The position numbers and the translations under genes are program-made. 45,866 bases of DNA from Deltaproteobacteria bacterium (lineage in GTDB: Bacteria; Desulfobacterota; Desulfobulbia; Desulfobulbales; Desulfobulbaceae): assembly GCA_024280455.1 (NCBI GenBank), contig JAJRQC010000015.1:1-45866 (forward strand), read 5' to 3'. The notes under the pieces are model-generated. The model searched no databases, was not told where the DNA came from, and saw nothing but the letters and a program-made list of their open reading frames with translations. This document shows, in pieces, positions 20,180-39,957 of the stretch. How positions within the stretch are numbered: the first letter of the stretch is position 1; each line of letters opens with the position of its first letter.

Positions 20180-21067
20180 ATGAGTGCAAAAATAATCAGC
20201 GGAACTGAAACAGCTAAAGCTATCCGTGAAGAATTGAAAACCGAAGTTGCCCAGTTAAAAGAAAAACATGACCTTGTTCCCGGGCTGGTCACCATTCTGG
20301 TTGGAGAGGATCCTGCTTCACAATCCTATGTCGCTGCAAAAAATAAAACCGCTCATAACCTGGGCATTCATTCCGAGCAGATAACGCTGGACGTTGAGAC
20401 CAGTGAGGAAGACCTCCTTGCCCTGGTTGATAAATATAACAACGATCCGAAAATTCACGGTATTCTTGTTCAGCTTCCCCTGCCGAAACATATCAATGAG
20501 GCCAAGGTATTATACACCATTGATCCGAATAAGGATGTCGACGGCTTCCATCCGGTGAATGTGGGTAAGATGATGCTTGGAGAACAGTGTTTTCTTCCCT
20601 GTACGCCCCATGGCTGTCTTGAGCTCCTGCAACGCTCCGGTATCGAAACCAGTGGCGCAGAGGTTGTGGTTATCGGTCGCTCAAATATTGTCGGCAAACC
20701 TGTTGCCAACTTGATGATGCAGAAGCGTAAAGGCGGGAATGCTACGGTCACTCTCTGCCATACCCGAACCAAGGATATGGATTTTCATACCAAAAGAGCC
20801 GATATCCTGGTGGTTGCCGCCGGTGTTGCCAACATGATTAAGGCCGATCAGGTAAAAGAGGGTGTTGTGGTTATAGATGTCGGGGTCAACCGTATAGGTA
20901 TGTCGAAGACCGGAAAGGCCATCCTTGCCGGTGATGTTGAGTTTGAATCCGTCAAGGAAAAGGCCTCCGCCATTACTCCCGTTCCCGGCGGAGTCGGCCC
21001 GATGACGATTACCATGCTTATGAAAAATACCGTCCAGGCCGCACGTCAGTTATCCGGGTTGGAGTAA
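20180..21067 (+). CDS. folD: Methylene-THF dehydrogenase / methenyl-THF cyclohydrolase
   Basis: The 295-residue bifunctional enzyme interconverts formyl-THF, methenyl-THF and methylene-THF using NAD(P). Signatures include YVAAKNKTAHNLGI with the catalytic Lys, GILVQLPLPKHI, the nucleotide-binding VVVIGRSNIVGKPVANLM and PVPGGVGPMTITML. AAGGAG lies 8 bases before the ATG. In this operon it serves the methyl branch between formyl-THF and MetF. The formyl-THF ligase gene (fhs) is not in the window. Confidence 0.96.
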   Translation: MSAKIISGTETAKAIREELKTEVAQLKEKHDLVPGLVTILVGEDPASQSYVAAKNKTAHNLGIHSEQITLDVETSEEDLLALVDKYNNDPKIHGILVQLPLPKHINEAKVLYTIDPNKDVDGFHPVNVGKMMLGEQCFLPCTPHGCLELLQRSGIETSGAEVVVIGRSNIVGKPVANLMMQKRKGGNATVTLCHTRTKDMDFHTKRADILVVAAGVANMIKADQVKEGVVVIDVGVNRIGMSKTGKAILAGDVEFESVKEKASAITPVPGGVGPMTITMLMKNTVQAARQLSGLE

Positions 21068-21156: not shown

Positions 21157-23151
21157 ATGACAAGTCAGAAAGGATGTGAAAGTTGTAATACCATAACCGG
21201 AGAGTCGACCATAGATCTCCTGAATCAGGATCTTGCCAAGCAGGTTCGCACCGCCTATGATCGGCTTGAAGACCGCGGCATGTCCGCCTGTCTCTTTGGG
21301 TCCGGCGGCACCTGCTGTCGAATTTGCAATATGGGGCCCTGTCAGATAATTGACGGCGTTGAGTCCATGATCGGTGTCTGTGGCGCAACCGCTGATACTG
21401 TAGCCGCCAGAAACTTTGCCCGAATTGTTGCTGCCGGAACAGCTGCCCATACCGATCATGCCCGTGAAATGGTTCGTGGATTTATCGCCACCGCCAAAGG
21501 GGAGACCCCGCATGAGATCAAGGATGTGGATAAACTCAACAAGATGGCGGAACTCTTTGATATCGAAATTGAAGGTCGAGACAAAAATGAGATAGCCCTG
21601 GAACTCGGTGAACGGGCACTGGCAGAATTTGGCCAGCAGGAAGGCACTTTGACTATGCTCAAACGAGCGCCTGAAAAGCAGCAGGAGATCTGGAAAAGAG
21701 AAGGGGTTGAACCCCGTGGTATCGACCGTGAGGTTGTCGAGACCATGCACCGGACCCATATGGGTGTTGACCAGGAATATCACAATATCATGAAGCAGGC
21801 CGCTCGCTGCTCACTGGCCGACGGCTGGGGAGCTTCCATGCTGTCCACCGAGCTCACCGATATCATGTTCGGCACCCCGGTTCCAATACGGGCTATTGTC
21901 GATCTTGGCGTACTGCGTGAAGATATGGTCAATGTAACCGTACATGGCCATGAGCCGCTGTTGGCTGAGTCACTCTGCCTGGCTGCTGATGACGAAGAGA
22001 TTCTTGCCCTGGCCAAGAAGGTCGGGGCCAAGGGTATCAATCTTGCCGGTGTCTGCTGCACCGGTAATGAGATCCTGATGCGACGTGGTATCCCGGTCGC
22101 TGGTTCCTTTATCCAGCAGGAGATGGTGTTGGCAACCGGAGCGGTTGAGGCCATGGTCGTCGATGTTCAGTGCGTCATGCAGTCGGTTGCCCAGGTAGTA
22201 AAAAACAAACACACCGACATCATCACCACCAATTACCGGGCCAAGATGCCCGATGCCATCCATATTCAGTTTGAGGAACACGATGCCTATAATTGTGCCA
22301 AGGAAATCCTCAAAAAGGCTATCGGCAACTTTAAAAAACGCGGCGAGTACTATATCCCGGAAAATAAAAAACTCGACGTTGTGGTCGGTTTTTCCCACGA
22401 GACCATCAACTACATGCTTGGCGGCCGTTTCCGTCAGTCTTATCGGCCGCTCAATGATAATATTATCAATGGCCGTATCCGAGGCGTAGGTGCTCTGGTT
22501 GGTTGCGAGCATTACAAGTACTCAGATGATGTTCATTTTGAAATTGCCAAAAAACTGATCGAGAATAATGTCCTTGTGCTGGTAACCGGTTGTGCTGCCC
22601 AGGCCTTGGGGCGCCGCGGTCTTCTGCGTCCGGAAGCAGCAACTGAATATGCCGGTGAAGGTCTGAAATCTGTCTGTGAGACCGTTGGCATGCCTCCGGT
22701 TCTCCATGTTGGATCCTGCGTCGATAACTCCCGTCTGCTTATTGCCCTGACTGAAATGGTTAAAGAAGGCGGACTTGGTGATGATATCTCCGAACTGCCT
22801 GCAGTTGGTTCGGCTCCGTTGTGGATGAGTGAAAAAGCCGTTGCAATCGGTCAGTACTTCGTCACCAGCGGCGCCCATGTTGTCTTTCAGAACCTGCCGA
22901 CTACCGGGGCCAAGGCATTTAATGAGTTTATTTTAAAAGGCATGAAAGATGTCTATGGTGCCAGTTGGGGTGTAGCCGAGACCGCTGAGGAAATTGCCGA
23001 TGCAATGATTGCCGCCATTGATGAGAAACGTGATGCCCTTGGAATCAACAAGAAGCAGGAGCGGGTACTCATGGATATGCAGATGCGTCGTGATCTTGAA
23101 GCCGGACAGGCTCTGCCTGGTGCCGGCTGTGGACATGGTGGTAATCAATAA
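21157..23151 (+). CDS. cooS: Anaerobic Ni-Fe carbon monoxide dehydrogenase catalytic subunit
   Basis: The 664-residue CooS/AcsA-type subunit reduces CO2 to CO for acetyl-CoA synthase (or runs in reverse). The N-terminus has the cysteine sets for the surface and B clusters (CESC near 7-10, CCRICNMGPC about 53-62). C-cluster residues appear in GVCCTGNEIL, VDVQCVMQS, GCEHYKY, TGCAAQALG and HVGSCVDN. It ends in a His/Cys/Gly-rich GAGCGHGGNQ tail. GAGGAG precedes the ATG. Because AcsB is encoded four genes later it should work in a CODH/ACS complex. The nickel-insertion ATPase gene cooC is not adjacent. Confidence 0.95.
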   Translation: MTSQKGCESCNTITGESTIDLLNQDLAKQVRTAYDRLEDRGMSACLFGSGGTCCRICNMGPCQIIDGVESMIGVCGATADTVAARNFARIVAAGTAAHTDHAREMVRGFIATAKGETPHEIKDVDKLNKMAELFDIEIEGRDKNEIALELGERALAEFGQQEGTLTMLKRAPEKQQEIWKREGVEPRGIDREVVETMHRTHMGVDQEYHNIMKQAARCSLADGWGASMLSTELTDIMFGTPVPIRAIVDLGVLREDMVNVTVHGHEPLLAESLCLAADDEEILALAKKVGAKGINLAGVCCTGNEILMRRGIPVAGSFIQQEMVLATGAVEAMVVDVQCVMQSVAQVVKNKHTDIITTNYRAKMPDAIHIQFEEHDAYNCAKEILKKAIGNFKKRGEYYIPENKKLDVVVGFSHETINYMLGGRFRQSYRPLNDNIINGRIRGVGALVGCEHYKYSDDVHFEIAKKLIENNVLVLVTGCAAQALGRRGLLRPEAATEYAGEGLKSVCETVGMPPVLHVGSCVDNSRLLIALTEMVKEGGLGDDISELPAVGSAPLWMSEKAVAIGQYFVTSGAHVVFQNLPTTGAKAFNEFILKGMKDVYGASWGVAETAEEIADAMIAAIDEKRDALGINKKQERVLMDMQMRRDLEAGQALPGAGCGHGGNQ

Positions 23152-23192: not shown

Positions 23193-23258
23193 CAGCGTAT
23201 TGAGAGAGAATAAGCCCCGCCAGGGTCTATCAGGAAATATGAAGGGGAAGGAGGATCG

Positions 23259-24539
23259 ATGAAATCAGGGAGTAATCTGGAGCGGGTACTTGCAAGCGGT
23301 GAGTTTGCCGTGACCGGTGAGCTGGGGCCGCCCAAAAACAGCGACCCTGAGGTGGTCAGAAAAAAAGCACGCATCCTCAAGGGGAATGTGGATGCGGTTA
23401 ATATTACAGACTGCCAGACCGCTATTGTCCGGATGTCCAGTATCGGTGCCGGTCTGATAACACAGTCTGAAGGAGTTGAACCGGTCATCCAGATGACCTG
23501 TCGTGACCGCAATCGGATCGGTATGCAGAGTGACCTGCTGGCTGCTTCAGCCATGGGCTTGAAGAACCTGCTCTGCCTCACCGGTGATCACCAGAAATTT
23601 GGTAATCATCCCGGTTCAAAAGGTGTCTTTGATATGGATTCCATCCAGATGCTCGGCATGGTTCGGGACATGCGGGATGCGAAAAAATTTCAATGCGGTG
23701 AAGAGATTAAAGGTTCCGCACCCAAGCTTTTTCTTGGCGCTGCCGCCAACCCCTTTGCCTATCCCTTTGAATTTCGTGCTGTTCGTCTGGGCAAAAAGGT
23801 TGCTTCCGGAGCCGATTTTATCCAGACACAGATCATCTACAACGTAGAAAAATTTGCCAAATTCATGGAGATGTGCCGTGATATGGGCCTGGATAAAAAA
23901 GTCTACATCCTGGCTGGTGTTACCCCGCCTAAGTCTCTGGGCATGGCCCGGTACATGAAAAAATTCGTTCCGGGTATGGACGTGACCGATGAGGTCATTG
24001 ACCGGATGAAAGGTGCCAAAGATAAGAAGCAGGAAGGCATCAATATATGTGTCGACATTATAAATCAGGTCAAGGAGATCAAGGGTGTTGCCGGTGTCCA
24101 TGTCATGGCCATTGAGTGGGAGGAGGCCGTCGCCGAGATTTGCGAAAAAGCCGGTCTGCTGCCCAGACCGACCTTTGATGCGGTAGACGAACCCGCTGCC
24201 ACCGAAACCGTTGTCACTGAGACTGTTACCGTTCGACCTCCTGAAAAGAAGGTTGATGCCGCTGATACGCAGGCGGCCGATGATGTGCTTGTCCAGGCCA
24301 GAAAAGAGGCCCAGCAGATAGTTGCTGCCGCCCGTGCCGAGGCCCAATCGATTAAAACACAGGCTGCACCCGGGTCTGTAGAAGAGAATAAAGGCAATAT
24401 CGTTGCCGGTGCCCAGAGTGATGCAGGAGAACATGCGATGAATGAAAAAGAGCGCCTGATGGCGTTGGAGTCTATGAAGCAGGGACTTGAGGCGTTAAAA
24501 AGGCCTATGGCCTGGACGACGATCAATTTGCAGCCCTGA
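23259..24539 (+). CDS. metF: Methylenetetrahydrofolate reductase with C-terminal tether, frame-disrupted
   Basis: The ORF has 426 residues. About the first 300 are the TIM-barrel MTHFR domain (GEFAVTGELGPPKN, VNITDCQTAIVRMSS, LCLTGDH, GADFIQTQIIYN, LAGVTPPKS), which reduces methylene-THF to methyl-THF. A Pro/Thr/Ala linker and coiled-coil-like VQARKEAQQIVAAARAEA follow, then a helical segment starting MNEKERLMALESMKQGLEAL (24438). At an A5 tract (24497-24501) the helical sequence clearly continues in the -1 frame as KKAYGLDDDQFAALMNFAG, directly into the acsD ORF. In the 0 frame it ends after 14 unrelated residues at TGA, overlapping the acsD ATG (TGATG). A strong AAGGAGG precedes the metF ATG. 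No MetV gene is adjacent. Confidence 0.9.
   Translation: MKSGSNLERVLASGEFAVTGELGPPKNSDPEVVRKKARILKGNVDAVNITDCQTAIVRMSSIGAGLITQSEGVEPVIQMTCRDRNRIGMQSDLLAASAMGLKNLLCLTGDHQKFGNHPGSKGVFDMDSIQMLGMVRDMRDAKKFQCGEEIKGSAPKLFLGAAANPFAYPFEFRAVRLGKKVASGADFIQTQIIYNVEKFAKFMEMCRDMGLDKKVYILAGVTPPKSLGMARYMKKFVPGMDVTDEVIDRMKGAKDKKQEGINICVDIINQVKEIKGVAGVHVMAIEWEEAVAEICEKAGLLPRPTFDAVDEPAATETVVTETVTVRPPEKKVDAADTQAADDVLVQARKEAQQIVAAARAEAQSIKTQAAPGSVEENKGNIVAGAQSDAGEHAMNEKERLMALESMKQGLEALKRPMAWTTINLQP
24497..24501 (+). other. Frame junction between metF and acsD (A5 tract)
   Basis: The sequence TTAAAAAGGCC joins the two reading frames. Zero-frame codons are TTA AAA AGG; a -1 shift at AAA gives AAG GCC TAT GGC and restores a continuous helical protein. 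The -1 frame is open only from 24491 because a TGA lies at 24488-24490, so any shift must happen in this narrow window. One extra A would make metF and acsD a single ORF. Confidence 0.7.
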
Positions 24540-25966
24540 TGAACTTTGCCGGCGCTGAAGCCATCTTAAAGAAAGAACCGCCGACTGGTGCTGCAGCTCC
24601 TGCAGCTCCTGCAGCTCCTGCAGCTCCTGCAGCTCAATCAGCCGCACCTGCCGTAGAAGCTGCCCCTGCCCCCAAGGTGGATGCAGAAGCTAATGGCGCA
24701 GCAGCCAAAGCAAAGGCGGATGCCGAAGCCAAGGCCAAAGCGGAAAGCGAGGCCAAAGCCGCAGCTGAAGCGAAGGCCAAGGCTGAGGCAGATGCTCAAG
24801 CTGATGCAGAGGCAAAACAAAAGGCGGATGCCAAAGCCAAAGCGGAAAGTGAGGCCAAAGCCGCAGTCGAGGCCAAAGCGAAGGCTGAGGCTGAGGTAAA
24901 GGCCAAGCGGGAAGCCGAAGCAGCTAAAGCCGCCGAAGCAAAACCGGTATCAAAGCCTGTCCCTGAAGGTCTTGGTGCTCCAGAACTTGCTGCTGAACAA
25001 ACACCTTTTGCAGATCGGGCCACCAAGGTGCCTGCTTCCTCGTATAAACAGGACTATTCCGGTACAATCCGCGAGGTTGTGCTCGGTAATGGCGACAATA
25101 CCATCACTGTCGGTGGTTCTGAAGTCCTTCCTTTCCATCTCTTTGAAGGAAAGATGCCTCACGAGCCGCTTATTGCCATGGAAGTCCAGGATGTCAAGCC
25201 GGATAACTGGCCTGCCACTCTGACCCAGTATTTTGATGACGTCATGGATAATCCTGTTGCCTGGGCACAGAAATGCGTCAATGAGTACAATGCCGATGCC
25301 CTTAATATTTACCTGATCGGTACCGATCCCAACGGAGAAAACAGGTCGGCAGCCGATGCGGCTAAAGATGCGGCCGCAATTATCGAGGCCGTTGATGTGC
25401 CTATCATTGTCTGGGGTTGTGGTAACAACGAAAAAGATACCGACACCCTGCGTGAGGTTACTTCAATAATCGGTGATAAGAAAGTCTGTCTGGCCCCTCT
25501 GGAAGATGCCAACTATCGCGCTATCGGCGCAACCGCCATGGCCTTTCAGCATCCCATGGTTGCAGCCTCGCCCATTGATGTTAATCTGGCCAAACAGTTG
25601 AACATTCTCCTTGAGAACCTCGGGGTCAGCCTTGATAACGTCTTGATGGATCCCTCCATAGGAGCCCTTGGATACGGTATTGAGTACACTTACTCGGTCA
25701 TGGAGCGGATTAGAATTGCCGCTCTGACCCAGCAGGACGAGAAACTCCAGGTGCCGATTATCTGTAACCTCGGCCGAGAGGTTTGGAAGACCAAAGAGGT
25801 CGGCCTGCCCTCCGATGCGGTCCTTGGTGACCAGGAACGCCGTGGAATCATGATGGAGGCCATGACCGCTTCCTGTATGATGATGGCCGGTGGTGAGGTT
25901 TTGATCATGCGTCACCCCAAGGCGATCAATATGGCCAAGTCGCTTATCAAAGGCTTGATGGCATAA
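24539..25966 (+). CDS. acsD: CODH/ACS corrinoid protein small subunit (delta) with long helical linker
   Basis: The ORF has 475 residues, against about 310-320 for the classic subunit. The canonical AcsD domain starts near residue 165 (YKQDYSGTIREVVLGNGDNTITVGG) and includes PFHLFEG, AMEVQDVKPDNWP, DPNGENRSA, NIYLIGTD and DPSIGALGYGIEY. With AcsC it carries the corrinoid methyl group to AcsB. Before it lies MNFAGAEAILKKEPP, an AAP repeat tract made by five GCAGCTCCT-type units, and about 80 residues of KAKAEAEAKA pattern. The ATG overlaps the metF stop. An alternative start at 24438, with AGGAG 7 bases upstream, would need a -1 shift. Confidence 0.93.
   Translation: MNFAGAEAILKKEPPTGAAAPAAPAAPAAPAAQSAAPAVEAAPAPKVDAEANGAAAKAKADAEAKAKAESEAKAAAEAKAKAEADAQADAEAKQKADAKAKAESEAKAAVEAKAKAEAEVKAKREAEAAKAAEAKPVSKPVPEGLGAPELAAEQTPFADRATKVPASSYKQDYSGTIREVVLGNGDNTITVGGSEVLPFHLFEGKMPHEPLIAMEVQDVKPDNWPATLTQYFDDVMDNPVAWAQKCVNEYNADALNIYLIGTDPNGENRSAADAAKDAAAIIEAVDVPIIVWGCGNNEKDTDTLREVTSIIGDKKVCLAPLEDANYRAIGATAMAFQHPMVAASPIDVNLAKQLNILLENLGVSLDNVLMDPSIGALGYGIEYTYSVMERIRIAALTQQDEKLQVPIICNLGREVWKTKEVGLPSDAVLGDQERRGIMMEAMTASCMMMAGGEVLIMRHPKAINMAKSLIKGLMA
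24591..24636 (+). repeat. 9-base tandem repeat in the acsD linker
   Basis: CTGCAGCTC repeats five times in a row, coding for (Ala-Pro-Ala)-type units. It is an in-frame microsatellite, so copy-number changes would lengthen or shorten the linker without breaking the frame. Confidence 0.75.
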
Positions 25967-26017: not shown

Positions 26018-28225
26018 ATGTCGAAGATCATCTGTTCCGCAGCGATTCGTGGCGCCAAGAATATCATTGACATGGCCGAAGCAAGCTACGAAGAGGCCCT
26101 GAAAAAATTCGGCCCTGAACAGGAAGTTTCCTTCCCCAATACAGCGTACTTTCTGCCTATTATCTATTCCATGCTTGGAGCCAAAGTTGAAAAACTCGGC
26201 GACATGAAGGATATCTTCCAGGAATGCCGTGGTCTTCTTCCTGCGGTTGTCACTGAGGATATATGGCTACCGTATCTGGCCCCGGCCCTTGATGCCGGTA
26301 TGGCCACCTTCTTTGCCGAGGAAATGTATGAGGCTATTCGTTACTTGAATGAGCCTAATTTTTACACCAAATCCGAGGACCCAATAGAAGAAAATTTATG
26401 GCTTGGTGCTGCCGATGACGTCATCTTCCGTAAACGCGGTGTGGAGTTCGTCGATGGAACAGCTCCCGGTTTTGCTGCTATTATGGGTACTCCTTCTGAT
26501 AAAGAAGTTGCCTCTAAAATTGCCCTGGAGTTGCAGGAAAAGAATCTGTACATCTTCATGCATGACCAGAGTGAGGGCAAGAATATGGCCGAACTGCTGG
26601 TTGAAAACGGTGTCCAGGTCGGCTGGGGTACCCGTCTGGTTCCCTTTGGTAAATCCTATACTTCAGCCGTCTTTGCCATCGGTTTTGCCTGTCGAGTAGC
26701 GCTTGCCTTTGGTGGTATCAAACCCGGCGATTATAAAGGCAACCTGTTGTACAACAAGGATCGGACCTTTGCCTTTATCATGGCGTTCGGCCCGGTTTCC
26801 GATGAATGGTATGCCAATGCCGCCGGAGCCATCAACTGGGGTTTCCCGACTATTTCCGACTACGATATTCCCGAGGTTCTGCCAACCGGTATATGTACAT
26901 ACGAGCACGTTGTTTCAAATATTGCTCATGATGAAATTGTTCAGAAGGCCATTGAGGTTCGTGGTCTGAAGGTCAACGTAACCAAGATTGACATCCCCAT
27001 GTCGTTTGGTCCCGCCTTCGAGGGTGAGCGTATCCGCAAAGATGACCTCTACATGGAATGCGGCGGTGGTCGAACCACAGGTGTCGAGGTTCTTATTTCC
27101 AAGGAAATGGATGAGGTGGAAGATGGCCTTGTTATCATGGAAGGTCCTGATATCTGCGATATTGAAGAGGGGCAGAATCTCCCCATCGGTATCCTGGTTG
27201 AGGTTGCCGGACGTGAAATGCAATCTGACTTTGAACCCATCCTTGAGCGTCAGTTTCATCACTTGATGAACTATGTCCAGGGAATCATGCACATTGGTCA
27301 GCGAAATATCATGTGGGTTCGGATTGGTAAAGGGGCGGTCGAAAAAGGCTTTTCCTTTAAACATCTCGGGATTGTTCTTCATGGGAAACTGCATCAGGAA
27401 TTCGGCGCTATTCTCGATAAGGTGCAGGTCAAAATTTACACCATCCAGGAGAAGGTTGAAGAGGTCATGGAACTGGCAAAGGGTGTCTATACCGAACGTG
27501 ATCTGCGTTTAGGTGCGATGACCGACGAAAGTGAAGAAGTTTTTTATTCCTGTACCCTCTGTCAATCCTTTGCTCCCAGCCATGTCTGTGTAATCACCCC
27601 TGAGCGAATCGGTATGTGTGGTGCCTACAACTGGCTTGACGGCAAAGCCTCGTTCCAGATCAACCCGACCGGTCCAAACCAGCCCATTGATAAAGGCGAA
27701 TGTACCGACGTCGACAACGGATATTACACCGGCATCAATGCGTTTGTTAAGCAGGCCTCCCGTGGAGCAGTAACCGAGGTCAGCTGTTACTCGTTGATGA
27801 ACAATCCCATGACTGCTTGCGGCTGCTTTGAAGCCATTGCCGCCATGCTGCCCCAATGTAACGGTATCATGGTCGTCAATCGTGATTTCAGAGGCATGAC
27901 CCCATCGGGCATGAAATTCACCACCCTGGCCGGTATGGCCGGTGGAGGTATGCAGACCCCTGGTTTTATGGGGGTTTCCAAGCATTACATGACCAGCAAT
28001 AAATTGTTCAAGGCCGAAGGCGGGCTCAAACGTGTTGTCTGGATCCCCAAAATGCTCAAGGATGAGATTGCTGATAAACTTCGTCAGTGTTGTGAAGACA
28101 TCGGTATGCCTGAGCTTTTTGACATGATTGCTACAGAAGAGCAGGGGACGACCGAAGAAGAGATTCTTGTGTTCCTCAAGGAAAAAGGGCATCCGGCCCT
28201 TGAAATGGATACAGCCATTGGCTGA
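26018..28225 (+). CDS. acsB: Acetyl-CoA synthase (CODH/ACS alpha/beta subunit)
   Basis: The 735-residue protein has the normal bacterial AcsB length. It joins CO, the corrinoid-bound methyl group and CoA into acetyl-CoA. The A-cluster ligands are visible as CTLCQSFAPSHVC...GMCGAYNW followed by ACGCFEAI, whose Cys-Gly-Cys binds the distal nickel. The N-terminal domain starts SKIICSAAIRGAKNIIDMAEASYEEALKKFG and carries the CO-channel region. AGGAG lies 8 bases before the ATG and the gap from acsD is 51 bases. Confidence 0.96.
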   Translation: MSKIICSAAIRGAKNIIDMAEASYEEALKKFGPEQEVSFPNTAYFLPIIYSMLGAKVEKLGDMKDIFQECRGLLPAVVTEDIWLPYLAPALDAGMATFFAEEMYEAIRYLNEPNFYTKSEDPIEENLWLGAADDVIFRKRGVEFVDGTAPGFAAIMGTPSDKEVASKIALELQEKNLYIFMHDQSEGKNMAELLVENGVQVGWGTRLVPFGKSYTSAVFAIGFACRVALAFGGIKPGDYKGNLLYNKDRTFAFIMAFGPVSDEWYANAAGAINWGFPTISDYDIPEVLPTGICTYEHVVSNIAHDEIVQKAIEVRGLKVNVTKIDIPMSFGPAFEGERIRKDDLYMECGGGRTTGVEVLISKEMDEVEDGLVIMEGPDICDIEEGQNLPIGILVEVAGREMQSDFEPILERQFHHLMNYVQGIMHIGQRNIMWVRIGKGAVEKGFSFKHLGIVLHGKLHQEFGAILDKVQVKIYTIQEKVEEVMELAKGVYTERDLRLGAMTDESEEVFYSCTLCQSFAPSHVCVITPERIGMCGAYNWLDGKASFQINPTGPNQPIDKGECTDVDNGYYTGINAFVKQASRGAVTEVSCYSLMNNPMTACGCFEAIAAMLPQCNGIMVVNRDFRGMTPSGMKFTTLAGMAGGGMQTPGFMGVSKHYMTSNKLFKAEGGLKRVVWIPKMLKDEIADKLRQCCEDIGMPELFDMIATEEQGTTEEEILVFLKEKGHPALEMDTAIG

Positions 28226-28273: not shown

Positions 28274-28352
28274 AAATAATTGCTATGAGTTGCCGGTTAC
28301 GGGAAAAATATCCCACCGGCTTTTGCGATACGCTTTAAGGAGGAAAGAGACA

Positions 28353-29705
28353 ATGGCGTTAACCGGTATACAGATTCTCAAGATGCTGCCCAAAAAGAAT
28401 TGTGGTGAATGCAGCATCCCCACATGTCTTGCCTTTGCCATGAAAGTGGCAGCAGGCCAGACCGAGATCGAAGAATGCCCCTATGTCAGTGATGAGGCAA
28501 AGGCTACCATTGGTGAGGCATCTGCTCCTCCAATCCGTACCATTAAGATCGGTTCCGGTGATGCAGAGTTTGTCGCCGGCGGAGAGACCTGTCTCTTCCG
28601 TCATGAGAAACGGTTTGAAAATCAAACCGGAATTGCCATCCTCATGTCAGCAGACGAGGATGCCGCCTCTATCGACGGAAAAATCGAACGTTTTAACGCC
28701 ATGGTCTATGAGCGCGTCGGTGTATACATGCGTGCCAATCTGGTTGCCCTTAAGGACACCGGTGACGGTGGCGCCTTTACCGCCCTGACCGAAAAGGTCA
28801 TTGAAAAACTGCCCAAAGCCGCTGTTATCCTGATGTCTGAAAGCGCTGAGAATCTGAAAACTGCAGCAAATGCCTGCGGTGATCGTACACCGATTCTCTT
28901 TGGTGCAACCGCAGACAACTGTGATGATATTGCCGCCCTTGGTAAAGAGCTGAATGCTCCTGTCGGGGTTAAGGGCAAAAACCTTGATGATCTGGTCGAG
29001 GTTTCCGGTAAGCTTATTGACGCCGGAGTTAAGGACATGGTTCTTGATACCGGCGCCCGGACCATGCGGGGAGCACTTGAAGACAACATTGTTGCCCGCC
29101 GCTCCGCAGTCAAGGAGAAGTATAAGCCGCTCGGTTTCCCGACCATTACATTTCCCTGTGAGATGACCGACGACCTGATGATGGAGGCCATGATCGCCTC
29201 CGTTCTGATGGCCAAATATGCAGGTATTGTGGTTCTGTCCGATATTCAGGGTGATGTCCTCTTCCCGCTCCTGCTTGAGCAGTTGAACATCTTCACCGAT
29301 CCGCAGCGGCCCATGGTCGTCCAGGAAGACATTTACCCGATAACCGGGCCGGATGAGAATTCACCGGTGCTGATTACCTGTAACTTCTCCCTGACCTACT
29401 TTATCGTCTCCGGTGAGATTGAAGGCTCCAAGGTTCCTTCCTGGCTGCTGATAAAAGACACAGAAGGTCTGTCTGTTCTGACCGCCTGGGCCGCCGGTAA
29501 ATTCGGTGCCGATCTTATTGCCCAGTTTGTCAACAAATCAGGCATCGGCGATAAGGTAAAACATCACGAGTTGATTATTCCCGGGTATCTTGCAACCATT
29601 AAGGGCGAACTTGAAGAGGAACTTCCCGACTGGACCATCACCATCGGTCCGCGTGAAGCCGGACATCTGCCCGCGTTCCTCAAGGACTGGAAGCCGGCAG
29701 CGTAG
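28353..29705 (+). CDS. acsC: CODH/ACS corrinoid iron-sulfur protein large subunit (gamma)
   Basis: From the start at 28353 the protein has 450 residues. The N-terminal [4Fe-4S] motif uses Cys17, Cys20, Cys25 and Cys42 (KNCGECSIPTC...EECP). The TIM-barrel and C-terminal corrinoid-binding domain follow. It accepts the methyl group from methyl-THF and hands it to AcsB. AAGGAGG lies 9 bases upstream of this ATG; a longer ORF from 28290 would place extra residues before the conserved MALTGIQILK start. The methyltransferase gene acsE, usually nearby, is absent here. Confidence 0.95.
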   Translation: MALTGIQILKMLPKKNCGECSIPTCLAFAMKVAAGQTEIEECPYVSDEAKATIGEASAPPIRTIKIGSGDAEFVAGGETCLFRHEKRFENQTGIAILMSADEDAASIDGKIERFNAMVYERVGVYMRANLVALKDTGDGGAFTALTEKVIEKLPKAAVILMSESAENLKTAANACGDRTPILFGATADNCDDIAALGKELNAPVGVKGKNLDDLVEVSGKLIDAGVKDMVLDTGARTMRGALEDNIVARRSAVKEKYKPLGFPTITFPCEMTDDLMMEAMIASVLMAKYAGIVVLSDIQGDVLFPLLLEQLNIFTDPQRPMVVQEDIYPITGPDENSPVLITCNFSLTYFIVSGEIEGSKVPSWLLIKDTEGLSVLTAWAAGKFGADLIAQFVNKSGIGDKVKHHELIIPGYLATIKGELEEELPDWTITIGPREAGHLPAFLKDWKPAA

Positions 29706-29822: not shown

Positions 29823-32800
29823 ATGACAGTTACACTCACCATAGACGATAACCAGGTCATCGCCGAGAAAGGGTTAACCATCCTCGAGGTAGCCAAACGT
29901 TCCGAGATTACCATCCCGACCCTGTGCCATATTGCCGGGACTGTCTCCGAAAATCCCTGTGAAATCTGTGCGGTTCAGATAGCCGAAGCGGAAAAATATG
30001 GTCTGAAGTCCTCTTTGTCCACAGAAGGACTCTTCCGAGCCTGTGTGACCCTGGCAAAAGAGGGCATGGAAATCCATACAGGTTCCGACGATGTTATTGC
30101 TCATCGCCAGGAACGGCTTGCAATTTTGTCACAGACCCATTTCGGCGACTGTAAAGCTCCATGTAACCTTACCTGCCCAGGCCAGATTAATGTTCAGGGG
30201 TATATCGCTCATGTGGCTAAAGGGGAATACGAAGAGGCCCTGCGGCTGGTCATGGATCGGAATCCGGTGCCGTTTTCAGTCGGCCGGGTCTGTCCCCGAT
30301 TCTGTGAGACCCGCTGTCGTCGTATTCTTATCGACGAACCTGTTTCAATCAACCACTTGAAACGTTTTGTTGCCGACTGGTGCATGGCCAACAATATCGA
30401 TCTTGCTATCCCTAAAGATAAACCAACCGGCAAGCGAATTGCGGTTATCGGCGGTGGACCTGCCGGACTCTCAGCTGCTTTTTTCCTGACCCGCAAGGGA
30501 CATGACGTAACGATTTTTGAGTCGGAACCCAAGCTTGGCGGTGCCCTGCGCTATGGGTTCCCGGAGTATAAAGTCCCCAAGGAAATTCTGGATTACGAGA
30601 TCAATGCCATTCTCAAGATGGGGATTAATATACGACTCAGTCAACGCTGGGGCAAGGACTTCAGCCTCCAGGACCTTAATGACATGGGGTATGATGCAAC
30701 CTTCATAGCAGTTGGCGCAGGAATTGATCAACCGATGGATGTGCCCTGTACCGATAAAGGCCATGTCTACACCGCAACCGAATTTCTTTACTTGATCAAC
30801 GAGGGCAAGCCCCTTGAACTCGGTAAGAGAGCGGCGGTGATCGGCGGCAATAATATTGCCATGGAGGTCGCCCGCAGCCTGCGAAGAAACGGGGTTGAAC
30901 AGGTCACGGTTATTTACCCCAGAGCCCGGATTGAAATGCCGGCCAATCAGCGAAATATCAAGGAAGCTGAAAAAGAGGGCGTACAATTCCTTTTAATGGC
31001 TTCTCCGGTCGGGATTTGCGGACTAAGTGAAAACGAAAGCCGCCTCAAGCTTGACCTGATCCGGATGAAACTTGGCGAGCCCGATAAACGTGGTAAACGA
31101 GAACCGCTGCCCATCCCCGATTCCACGAATTCGCTCAGCGTCGACACGGTGGTCAGTTCGCTTGGCCAGTTGGCTGTCGATGGATCAGTCACCGGCGGTG
31201 CACTTGAAGAGTCTATAAAAATTTCTCCAAAGGGTATGTTCGTTGCCAACCCCCGTTCATCACAGACCAGTGTGGACGGTGTTTTTGCAGGGGGCGATGC
31301 TGCTACCGGTTCTAAATCCGTTATCCAGGCGGTTGTTTCAGCCCGAAGAGCGGCAAACAACATCCATTCATATGTTATGGATGTGCCAAAGGATCCTGCC
31401 GACAACCGTTTTAACTTTACCCGTGGTAAATCATTTGACGATGTCGCCCTGAAAAACTTTGACGGCATCAACGTAAAACTTCGGGAAAAAATGCCCGAAC
31501 GCCCCCCCGAGGTCTGTGTTCAGGATTTCGACGAGGTCAAGCTTGGTTTTACCGAAAAAATGGCCCACAGAGAAGCCGAACGCTGTCTGTCCTGCGGTTG
31601 TACGGCCTTTGAACGCTGCGATTTGAAGCGCCTTGATATTGATTTCCAAGTCAATATCAATAAAACGGGGATGGGAAAAATTCCCTGGTACCCCATTGAT
31701 TCCGATCATCGGGCAATTCGGGTCGATCGCAATAAATGTATTTACTGCATGCGCTGTGTGCGCTCCTGTGAATATGATGCCCTGGAATTAAAGGTGCAGT
31801 CCCTTGATCCTATGGGCAGACCACTGGGCCTGGAAATTATCTTTAATGAAAATTGTGTTTCCTGCGGCAAATGCGTGGACAACTGTTCCACCGGTGCGCT
31901 TAATAAAAAGAATCGCATTGTTCCGATTCAGTCAGAGGTTGTTCAGGATATTCGTACCACCTGTCCTTACTGCGGCACCGGCTGTCAGATTGACCTCAAA
32001 GTCAAGGGTAAAACCATTCTTGAGGTTACAGCTGATTCCGATGCGATCCCGAATTTCGGCGATCTCTGTGTCAAGGGACGGTTCGGCCATAACTTTATCC
32101 AGCATCCCGATCGGCTGAAAACGCCGATGATTCGCTGGCACAAGGACGGCGTTCTTGAACCCGCCACCTGGGAACAGGCCCTTGACTTCATGGCCGGTTC
32201 ATTTGCCCGTATTCTTGGCGAATACGGTGCTGATGCCCTGGCCGGACTCTCATCGGCCCGGTGTACCACCGAAGAAAATTATGCTTTTCAAAAGTTTTTC
32301 CGGGTGGCCATCGGCACTAACAACGTTGATCACTGTGCCCGCTACTGACACAGCCCAACGGTGACCGGTCTGGTCACAGTCCTTGGCTCGGGAGCAATGA
32401 CCAACACCATTGAGGGGGTCGTTGATAACGATGTCCTGCTGGTGATTGGTTCAAATACCACCGAGACCCATCCGGTTATCGGTGTTCGCATGCGCCGTGC
32501 GGTTAAAAAGGGAGCCAAGCTTATCGTTGCCGATCCGAGAAAGATCGGGCTGACCGATGATGCGGCCCTGTGGTTACGGCAACGACCCGGAACCGATGGT
32601 GCATTGATCAACGCGCTCTGTCATGTCATTCTGCGGGAAGGGCTTGAAGATGCAGCGTATATCAAGGAACGAACGGAGAATTTCAAGGCCTTTAAGGAAT
32701 CGGTCTCGGAATGTACTCCCCAGTGGGCCGAACAGATCACCGGTGTTGCTGCTGTTGATATTGAACAGGCCGCAAAGCTCTACGCTGGAGCTGAGCGGGC

Positions 32801-33995
32801 TGGAATCTATTATACCATGGGAATTACCCAGCACACCTCGGGCACGGATAACGTCTGCGCCCTGGCCAACCTTGCTCTGCTGACCGGGAATCTCGGTAAG
32901 CATGGGGCCGGTCTCAATCCACTGCGGGGACAGAACAATGTTCAGGGCGCCAGCGACATGGGCTGTAATCCTGTGTTCTATCCCGGATATCAGCGGGTCG
33001 ACGATGAGGGCCACCAGCAAAAATTTGAAGAATTGTGGGGAACACCGCTCTCTCCGGAGCCGGGTTTAACCGCAACCGAGATGCCGGCTGCCATACATGA
33101 GGGCAAACTGAAAGGGCTGTGGATCATGGGCGAAAACCCTGTTCTCAGTGACCCGAACAGTGCCCATGTCAGCGAGGCCTTTAAACATCTTGATATCCTG
33201 GTTGTGCAGGACATCTTCTTAACCGAGACCGCTGAGATTGCCGACGTCGTGCTGCCGGCGGCTTCTTTTGCGGAAAAAGACGGAACGTTTACCAATACCG
33301 AACGTAGAGTACAGCGGGTTCGTAAAGCCGTCCCTCCGCCGGGCAGTGCGCTCGATGACCTGACTATCATCAATCAGGTCAGCGCCCGGATGATCGGCAA
33401 CGGCAGGCAGAAGGCAAATGATGCTGCCGCCACTTTTGATGAGATTACCAAAACCTGGGTTGCGATGGCCGGTATGGACTATGATCGGCTTGAGAGTGAA
33501 AGCCTGCAGTGGCCTTGTCCTGAAAGGAATCACCCCGGAACCCCGGTTCTGCATGAAAACGGGTTTCCCCGCGGCAAGGCACTTTTTTCAGCCATTACCT
33601 GGAACGGACCCGATGAGCTGCCTGATGAGGAATATCCACTGGTGCTTTCCACTGGCCGTATTCTCTATCAGTACCATACGGGAACCATGACCAGGCGCTC
33701 CGAAGTGCTTGAAGAGTCGGCCCCGTCGCCGTATGTGGAGATGAACCCGGCTGATGCTGAAATCTTAAGCCTTGAAGAAGGTGAAACCGTGCAGGCAAGC
33801 ACCCGTCGCGGACAAATAACCCTGCCGGTCAGGATTACCGATCGGGTGTATAAGGGGATGGTATTCATGCCGTTTCACTATAAAGAGGCCGCAGCCAACC
33901 TGTTGACCAACGACGCCCTTGATCCTGTATGTAAGATACCCGAGGCCAAGGTCTGCGCCATTAAAATAGAAAAAGTTGAAGATGTATCTGCGTAG
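29823..33995 (+). CDS. fdhA: Fused selenocysteine formate dehydrogenase: [2Fe-2S]-GltD-ferredoxin-FdhA
   Basis: This is one 1390-residue protein if UGA at codon 842 (32346-32348) is read as Sec. The order of domains is: a NuoG-like [2Fe-2S] domain (Cys35, 46, 49, 74); a GltD/NfnB-like N-terminal [4Fe-4S] region (Cys110, 114, 118 and CPRFCETRC) and FAD/NAD(P) Rossmann modules (IGGGPAG 209-215, IGGNNIAMEVA about 340-350, GVFAGGDA about 486-493); two [4Fe-4S] clusters (Cys639-642-645-649, Cys678-681-684-688); and the molybdopterin domain with CPYCGTGC (714-721) and Sec842 in the ARY-U-HSPTV context. It should interconvert CO2 and formate with electrons from NAD(P)H and/or an iron-sulfur partner. 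No Shine-Dalgarno is visible; the ATG fits the domain start. Confidence 0.9.
32361..32377 (+). promoter_or_regulatory. SECIS hairpin of fdhA
   Basis: GTGACC-GGTCT-GGTCAC forms a perfect 6-base-pair stem with the GGUCU loop, starting 12 bases after the UGA. The E. coli fdhF element has the same GGUCU apical loop. This supports Sec insertion at 32346-32348. Confidence 0.85.
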
Positions 33996-39254: not shown

Positions 39255-39370
39255 AAGCAGAGCTTCTTTTTCAGGGAACAATATGGTTATTATTTAAACC
39301 AGTATCCTTGTAATGTGCTCGAGTGGTCATTATAGTGACTAGCAAAGGAAAGCTAAAGGGAGGTATAGCC

Positions 39371-39634
39371 ATGCAGACAATTGAAACTTTTATTCCAATT
39401 ACTCAGGCCAAAGCCAAGCTTTTGGATATGGTAAGGCAGTTGCGCGATACGGACGACACCATAGCGATCACAAAAAATGGCGTTCCTGAAGCTGTTCTCT
39501 TGTCCATGAGGAAATTTGAAGGTTTATTAGAAACCATTGATATCCTGGCTGATCCTGAAATGATGAAGCAGCTTAAAGCTTCCGCAAATGATGTGAAAGC
39601 AGGCCGGTTAATAGATCTTGATGAGGCGTTTTAG
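39371..39634 (+). CDS. Phd/YefM-type antitoxin
   Basis: The 87-residue protein begins TFIPITQAKAKLLDMVRQLRDTDDTIAITKNGVPEAVLLS, the DNA-binding fold of Phd/YefM antitoxins, with an acidic C-terminal tail that would wrap the toxin. GGGAGGT lies 6 bases before the ATG at 39371; earlier in-frame starts lack this. Its stop TAG shares one base with the toxin start codon. Confidence 0.9.
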   Translation: MQTIETFIPITQAKAKLLDMVRQLRDTDDTIAITKNGVPEAVLLSMRKFEGLLETIDILADPEMMKQLKASANDVKAGRLIDLDEAF

Positions 39635-39957
39635 TGATCTATCAGGTTAAACTCACCTTTTTTGTAAATAGGGTCGCTAAAACATTCAACCCTGGGGTAA
39701 AAAAATCCGCGAAAGCTGCCCTGAAGGAACTTGCCGAGGATCCTTTTCTTGGTAAAGAATTACAGGCTGAATTAAGTGGATTCAGGTCGTATAAATTTCA
39801 GAGGTACCGGATTATTTTCAAAACCAATACCCGAGAAAAGATCATCATTGTCTGGGCCATCGGCCACCAGCGCGATATTTACGAAACCTTTAGTGAACAT
39901 CTTTTAAGTCTTTCACCTGAAGATGAAGAAGGGGAGATGCCTCCTTTGCAGGGTTAA
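39634..39957 (+). CDS. RelE/ParE-superfamily toxin
   Basis: The 107-residue protein begins at GTG. It shows the RelE-like pattern FNPGVKKSAKAALKELAEDPFLGKELQAELSGFRSYKFQRYRIIFK and IIVWAIGHQRDIYETF. Members cleave mRNA on the ribosome or poison gyrase; the Arg-rich RSYKFQRYRI strand fits an RNase toxin. The one-base overlap with the antitoxin suggests strict coupling. It could stabilise the repeat-rich region around it. Confidence 0.87.
   Translation: MIYQVKLTFFVNRVAKTFNPGVKKSAKAALKELAEDPFLGKELQAELSGFRSYKFQRYRIIFKTNTREKIIIVWAIGHQRDIYETFSEHLLSLSPEDEEGEMPPLQG

Follow-up and report, generated by a model that had tools for sequence, protein, structure and literature searches.

The corrinoid iron-sulfur protein pairs a small subunit, AcsD, with a large one, AcsC. 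The AcsD chains of known structure (PDB 2h9a, 4c1n, 4djd and 9fzy) are stand-alone proteins of 309-323 residues. A fusion of AcsD to methylene-THF reductase (MetF) is named once in the open-access literature searched, where the abbreviation list of the genome paper on Desulfurivibrio alkaliphilus AHT2 includes an mthfr/acsD fusion (PMC5016858). The text of the same paper names DaAHT2_0827 as the methylene-THF reductase, and we infer that this is the fusion gene. The locus described here likewise appears to encode a fusion, with the difference that its copy is one base short. Searches of the open-access literature, including passages of PMC10553843, PMC12827605, PMC2702500 and PMC5016858, turned up no mention of an internal translation start in a MetF-AcsD fusion. 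A shorter second product in the same frame as a longer gene, and inside it, has a counterpart in Cas11b; the title of PMC11899642 claims that short product as shown, whereas in the present case, that of a metabolic fusion gene, conservation is the basis for proposing the second product.

The window, a stretch of 45,866 nucleotides, is contig C167 of a 4.15-Mb assembly in 173 contigs. It holds a Wood-Ljungdahl cluster of folD, a CO dehydrogenase gene, metF, acsD, acsB, acsC, a formate-dehydrogenase-like gene and an HdrA-like gene. On the forward strand, folD (20180-21067; NCBIfam) and the gene for an anaerobic CO dehydrogenase catalytic subunit of the acsA/cooS type (21157-23151; TIGR01702, E 1e-177) precede metF and acsD, which are followed by acsB, encoding acetyl-CoA synthase (26018-28225; NF040764, E 0), and acsC, encoding the corrinoid protein large subunit (28290-29705; NF003195, E 1e-171). 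The family match of acsC begins at residue 22 of the ORF, so its real start is probably further in. The formate-dehydrogenase-like protein (29823-33995) is interrupted by a TGA at 32346-32348 (NVDHCARY-stop-HSPTVTGL), which we take to be the position of selenocysteine in FdhA proteins. The TGA is in frame, and given its position the two ORFs probably make up a single selenoprotein joined to a GltD-like part. Downstream of the cluster, at 39323-39957, is a toxin-antitoxin pair with a PhdYeFM antitoxin and a ParE-like toxin. A plasmid search returned no match.

As the window reads, metF and acsD are two overlapping ORFs on the forward strand. The metF ORF (frame 0; 23259-24539, 426 residues) starts 4 bases after a Shine-Dalgarno sequence, AAGGAGG (23248-23254), and encodes an MTHFR domain at residues 7-299 (23277-24155; Pfam PF02219, E 7.3e-41) followed by a variable linker. 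The acsD ORF (24539-25966, 475 residues) contains the entire matched CdhD stretch (PF03599, E 6.3e-45, residues 179-457), and PDB matches identify its product as the corrinoid protein small subunit (2h9a_B, E 7.7e-84). The last 300 residues align with almost the full length of the solved AcsD chains; in contrast to those stand-alone chains, the domain here is preceded by a helical segment, a long Ala/Lys/Glu linker and MetF. The stop of frame 0 overlaps the ATG of the acsD ORF in TGATG (24537-24541), and no Shine-Dalgarno-like sequence was seen before this restart at 24539.

The helical segment (24438-24568, forward strand) is where the two frames meet. Frame 0 encodes MNEKERLMALESMKQGLEAL, and the acsD frame carries the segment on with KKAYGLDDDQFAALMNFAGAEAIL. 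Around the A5 tract at 24497-24501 frame 0 reads GCG TTA AAA AGG, and past ...GLEAL it encodes just KRPMAWTTINLQP; the acsD frame is open from 24491 and encodes KKAYGLDDDQFAALMNFAG, which is the continuation seen in relatives. The initial annotation had described a helix that starts at 24438 and carries on in the other frame after the A5 tract, and both the ORF reading and the relatives bear it out. Its account of an unrelated short tail ending at TGATG also holds, except that the tail has 13 residues and not 14. In a structure model of a fusion from another locus (L002), which is of low confidence (mean pLDDT 59.6, pTM 0.42, 17 sequences), the residues around the internal start proposed below are helical.

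The proposal that metF and acsD form one coding unit is supported by the relatives. AcsD is present in 47 of the 57 genomes searched, the window genome included, and in 35 of these 47 an open frame spans 839-981 residues, so that the fusion looked for in homologs is widely found; wherever the full locus was fetched, MetF is in the same ORF as AcsD. The 12 genomes without a long frame are the window genome, whose MetF-AcsD reading frame is interrupted by the frame change at 24497-24501, and 11 more. Most of them are cut by contig ends or N runs, as judged from coordinates and loci for all except G047 and G049, and the G053 copy has an in-frame TAG. The matching public records include Desulfobulbaceae MAGs, a Desulfobulbales MAG, Candidatus Electrothrix (a cable bacterium) and Desulfurivibrio. 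Across the order Desulfobulbales, to which these relatives belong, at least 186 of 242 genomes have AcsD matches; in several genera of one family AcsD is of another type, and its frames run to about 525-550 residues. MetF-AcsD fusions also occur elsewhere in the phylum, where the linkers differ. Both the MTHFR and the CdhD/AcsD domains are recognised by Pfam at the window locus, and the same pair is a single gene in relatives. Judged by these relatives, the window locus is a MetF-AcsD fusion gene of the Wood-Ljungdahl cluster that is normally a continuous ORF of about 900 codons.

What, then, has split the window copy? In all 27 relatives with a visible junction a single frame runs straight through. 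The closest relative reads GCG TTG AAA AAG GCC against GCG TT- AAA AAG GCC in the window, that is, GCGTTGAAAAAGG against GCGTT-AAAAAGG. The A count there is likewise five, so the sixth A that had been considered is not found, although the relative does carry one base more, a G. Loss of the G of TTG is the simplest account; an alternative is a TTG-to-TTA change together with the loss of one A. Since the simplest missing base lies outside the A run, a plain homopolymer error does not describe the loss, which is a point against reading it as an error.

The sequence at the junction as it stands, A AAA AGG (24497-24503), resembles a slippery site, and the initial annotation suggested programmed -1 frameshifting that would yield a MetF-AcsD fusion, with ordinary termination yielding free MetF. 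A -1 slip at this heptamer would restore the reading of the relatives, a G-rich stretch is visible by eye upstream of it, and the folding energy of the 60 bases downstream is -10.2 kcal/mol. However, none of the 27 aligned relatives changes frame here, the closest reading TTG AAA AAG in a single frame, and the slippery-looking heptamer exists only because a base is missing. Moreover, the other frame breaks in the window genome and in relatives are scattered. With neither a slippery site nor a frame change conserved in the 27 relatives, programmed frameshifting was rejected, and we regard it as highly improbable.

The background rate of such breaks was surveyed with ORFs from 1.2 Mb of a single-contig relative (G012) compared with 749 kb of the window genome. 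Four of 71 orthologous places were flagged; three of these are net one base short in the window genome, and the fourth was traced to the reference. The metF-acsD gene is outside the 71 sampled places because a stretch boundary runs through the G012 copy. In the reverse comparison, 4 of 98 places were automatically flagged as frame changes in G012, and such breaks are thus not special to the window assembly. The three breaks in the window genome, each net one base short, are in loci L186 (near 11775), L128 (near 11355) and L187 (near 3735), and by eye they adjoin A runs or AA. Among the relatives, three fused genes without N runs are broken away from the junction, at residues 86-103, 155-180 and 214-225. 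Taken together, the comparisons indicate that the break pattern is one of scattered indels or errors and not of a programmed site, and frame calls in the window assembly need care.

A deletion or an assembly error had been the other possibilities put forward at the outset, and the evidence supports this pair. Most likely, the split reflects an error of consensus or assembly in which one base was lost at 24496/24497; a fresh, non-programmed mutation is less likely. Error is favored because one-base breaks of this kind also occur in other genes of the genome. The sequence would permit a real and recent deletion in the lineage, with AcsD still made by termination-reinitiation at TGATG or by low-level slippage, and the called acsD ORF does hold the full CdhD match. 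Such a deletion would nonetheless damage both products of a gene whose AcsD part has a single match in the genome, and no Shine-Dalgarno sequence precedes the restart. The junction DNA likewise has a single match in the genome search, and a 20-mer across it occurs once in the window. The other cluster enzymes that were scanned match their families (the formate-dehydrogenase-like protein with its in-frame TGA at the selenocysteine position), and the single acsD match within an otherwise whole-looking cluster again favors a sequence error. In addition, at the one-base-break rate sampled, many other genes would be broken too. We therefore consider a real deletion unlikely and prefer a one-base sequence error.

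The linker just ahead of the helical segment holds the more informative feature. An SD-like AGGAG had been pointed out before 24438; it lies at 24425-24429, 8 bases before an in-frame ATG (24438-24440, in ATG AAT GAA; both on the forward strand), and it proves to be a conserved feature. At this place, within an otherwise variable linker, the fused ORFs have GCAGGAGaacatgagATGAATGAA or a sequence close to it. GGA-GAN and the ATG are present in 45 of 45 full-length ORFs; a codon alignment was made from these 45 full-length fused ORFs without N, less L112 and L034, which leaves 43. In all 43 the glycine at -4 is encoded by GGA and the internal start codon is ATG. At the other 42 conserved glycine columns GGA reaches at most 33%, and it makes up 16% of all glycine codons in the fused genes. 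The residue at -5 is alanine in 42 ORFs (GCA in 34 and GCG in 8) and serine in one; GCC and GCT, which together account for 64% of the alanine codons in these genes, are never used there.

The start region is also weakly structured, with a mean of -4.7 kcal/mol against -12.0 kcal/mol at other places of the same genes (n = 43), and 34 of the 43 start regions are in the lowest tenth of structure relative to 60 sampled positions of their own gene. This low structure may partly reflect A-rich composition. SD-like 4-mers at -14 to -5 precede 90 of 1323 other in-frame ATGs. The site thus combines a Shine-Dalgarno sequence at proper spacing with an in-frame start, both kept beyond what the protein constrains. 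The codon and structure tests are evidence of constraint, not of translation. From the conservation of its nucleotides, the site is probably an internal translation start for free AcsD, and the fused gene probably yields both products.

The feature extends across the order. A pattern that allowed any glycine codon (GGN), which matches the window at 24426-24446, was searched in 242 genomes, the window genome included; it gave 137 matches in 132 genomes from 12 of the 15 families listed, all with GGA, and the reversed pattern gave no match in the same 242 genomes. Of the 137, two (G162 and G217) fall outside metF-acsD, in unrelated genes; the other 135 are taken as found, and some of them are on short contigs without the AcsD part. 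Six AcsD-bearing genomes missed by the pattern were picked, and all six keep GGA-GAR and the ATG with other residues between. In another order of the phylum with the same fusion, the helical segment was recognized in 8 of 36 scanned loci, the remaining 28 being explicable by 5'-cut loci or divergence, and an SD-like sequence with a start is present in 2 of the 8. The internal start consequently looks like a trait of the Desulfobulbales and not one common to all such fusions. The helical segment in the 8 loci is related to that of the Desulfobulbales and mostly lacks an internal start. In this other order (loci L045-L059 and L216-L230) the fusion has a longer linker with repeats that are TPR-like by eye.

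A role as pause sites has been discussed for SD-like sequences inside genes, and the conserved GGAG...ATG could be a pause signal, or a protein constraint at the boundary of the fused domains, instead of a start. Its position at the MetF/AcsD boundary is compatible with pausing, and the residues G, E, M, N and E are also invariant as protein in 17 aligned fusions. Nevertheless, the glycine codon is fixed although the protein requires glycine alone. The two residues between GGA-GAR and the ATG vary (His, Asp, Glu or Asn at the first; Glu, Ala, Lys, Asp, Ile or Val at the second), yet the Shine-Dalgarno sequence, the spacing and the ATG stay constant, and the region is unusually unstructured. 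A pause signal or protein constraint thus seems quite unlikely, and an internal start for free AcsD is preferred.

The explanation that very likely accounts best for the locus as a whole, given the comparative sequence data, has three parts: a fusion gene, a probable one-base error, and a proposed internal start that would give free AcsD. Since metF has a strong Shine-Dalgarno sequence of its own, the fusion would be made by ribosomes that start at metF, while ribosomes that start at the internal site, ATG 24438, would produce free AcsD beginning at the helical segment. This arrangement would supply more AcsD than MetF and so could balance AcsD to AcsC in the corrinoid protein, with part of the AcsD tethered to MetF via the fusion. 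Because the base is lost downstream of the internal ATG, both the fusion and free AcsD would be broken; compared with free AcsD, the called acsD ORF would be 34 N-terminal residues short, and it shows no Shine-Dalgarno sequence of its own. AcsE-like proteins are encoded elsewhere in the window genome, so the fusion need not replace AcsE, and a replacement was discarded as an explanation. One protein of the same genome, at 5878-7359 of contig C66 (G000, locus L233), has 571 residues and two tandem AcsE-like pterin-binding domains.

For annotation, the split itself matters little and is best regarded as a probable one-base error, to avoid recording one gene as two, whereas a gene caller that reports the long ORF alone would overlook free AcsD. 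It is likely that metF-acsD of the Desulfobulbales is a two-product gene in which the internal site determines how much corrinoid protein is made relative to methylene-THF reductase, while some of the corrinoid protein stays tethered to the enzyme that produces its methyl donor. If so, a central CO2-fixation gene of sulfur-cycling bacteria would make two proteins from one frame, and the internal site would offer a direct handle on the stoichiometry of the Wood-Ljungdahl pathway and on possible channelling within it.
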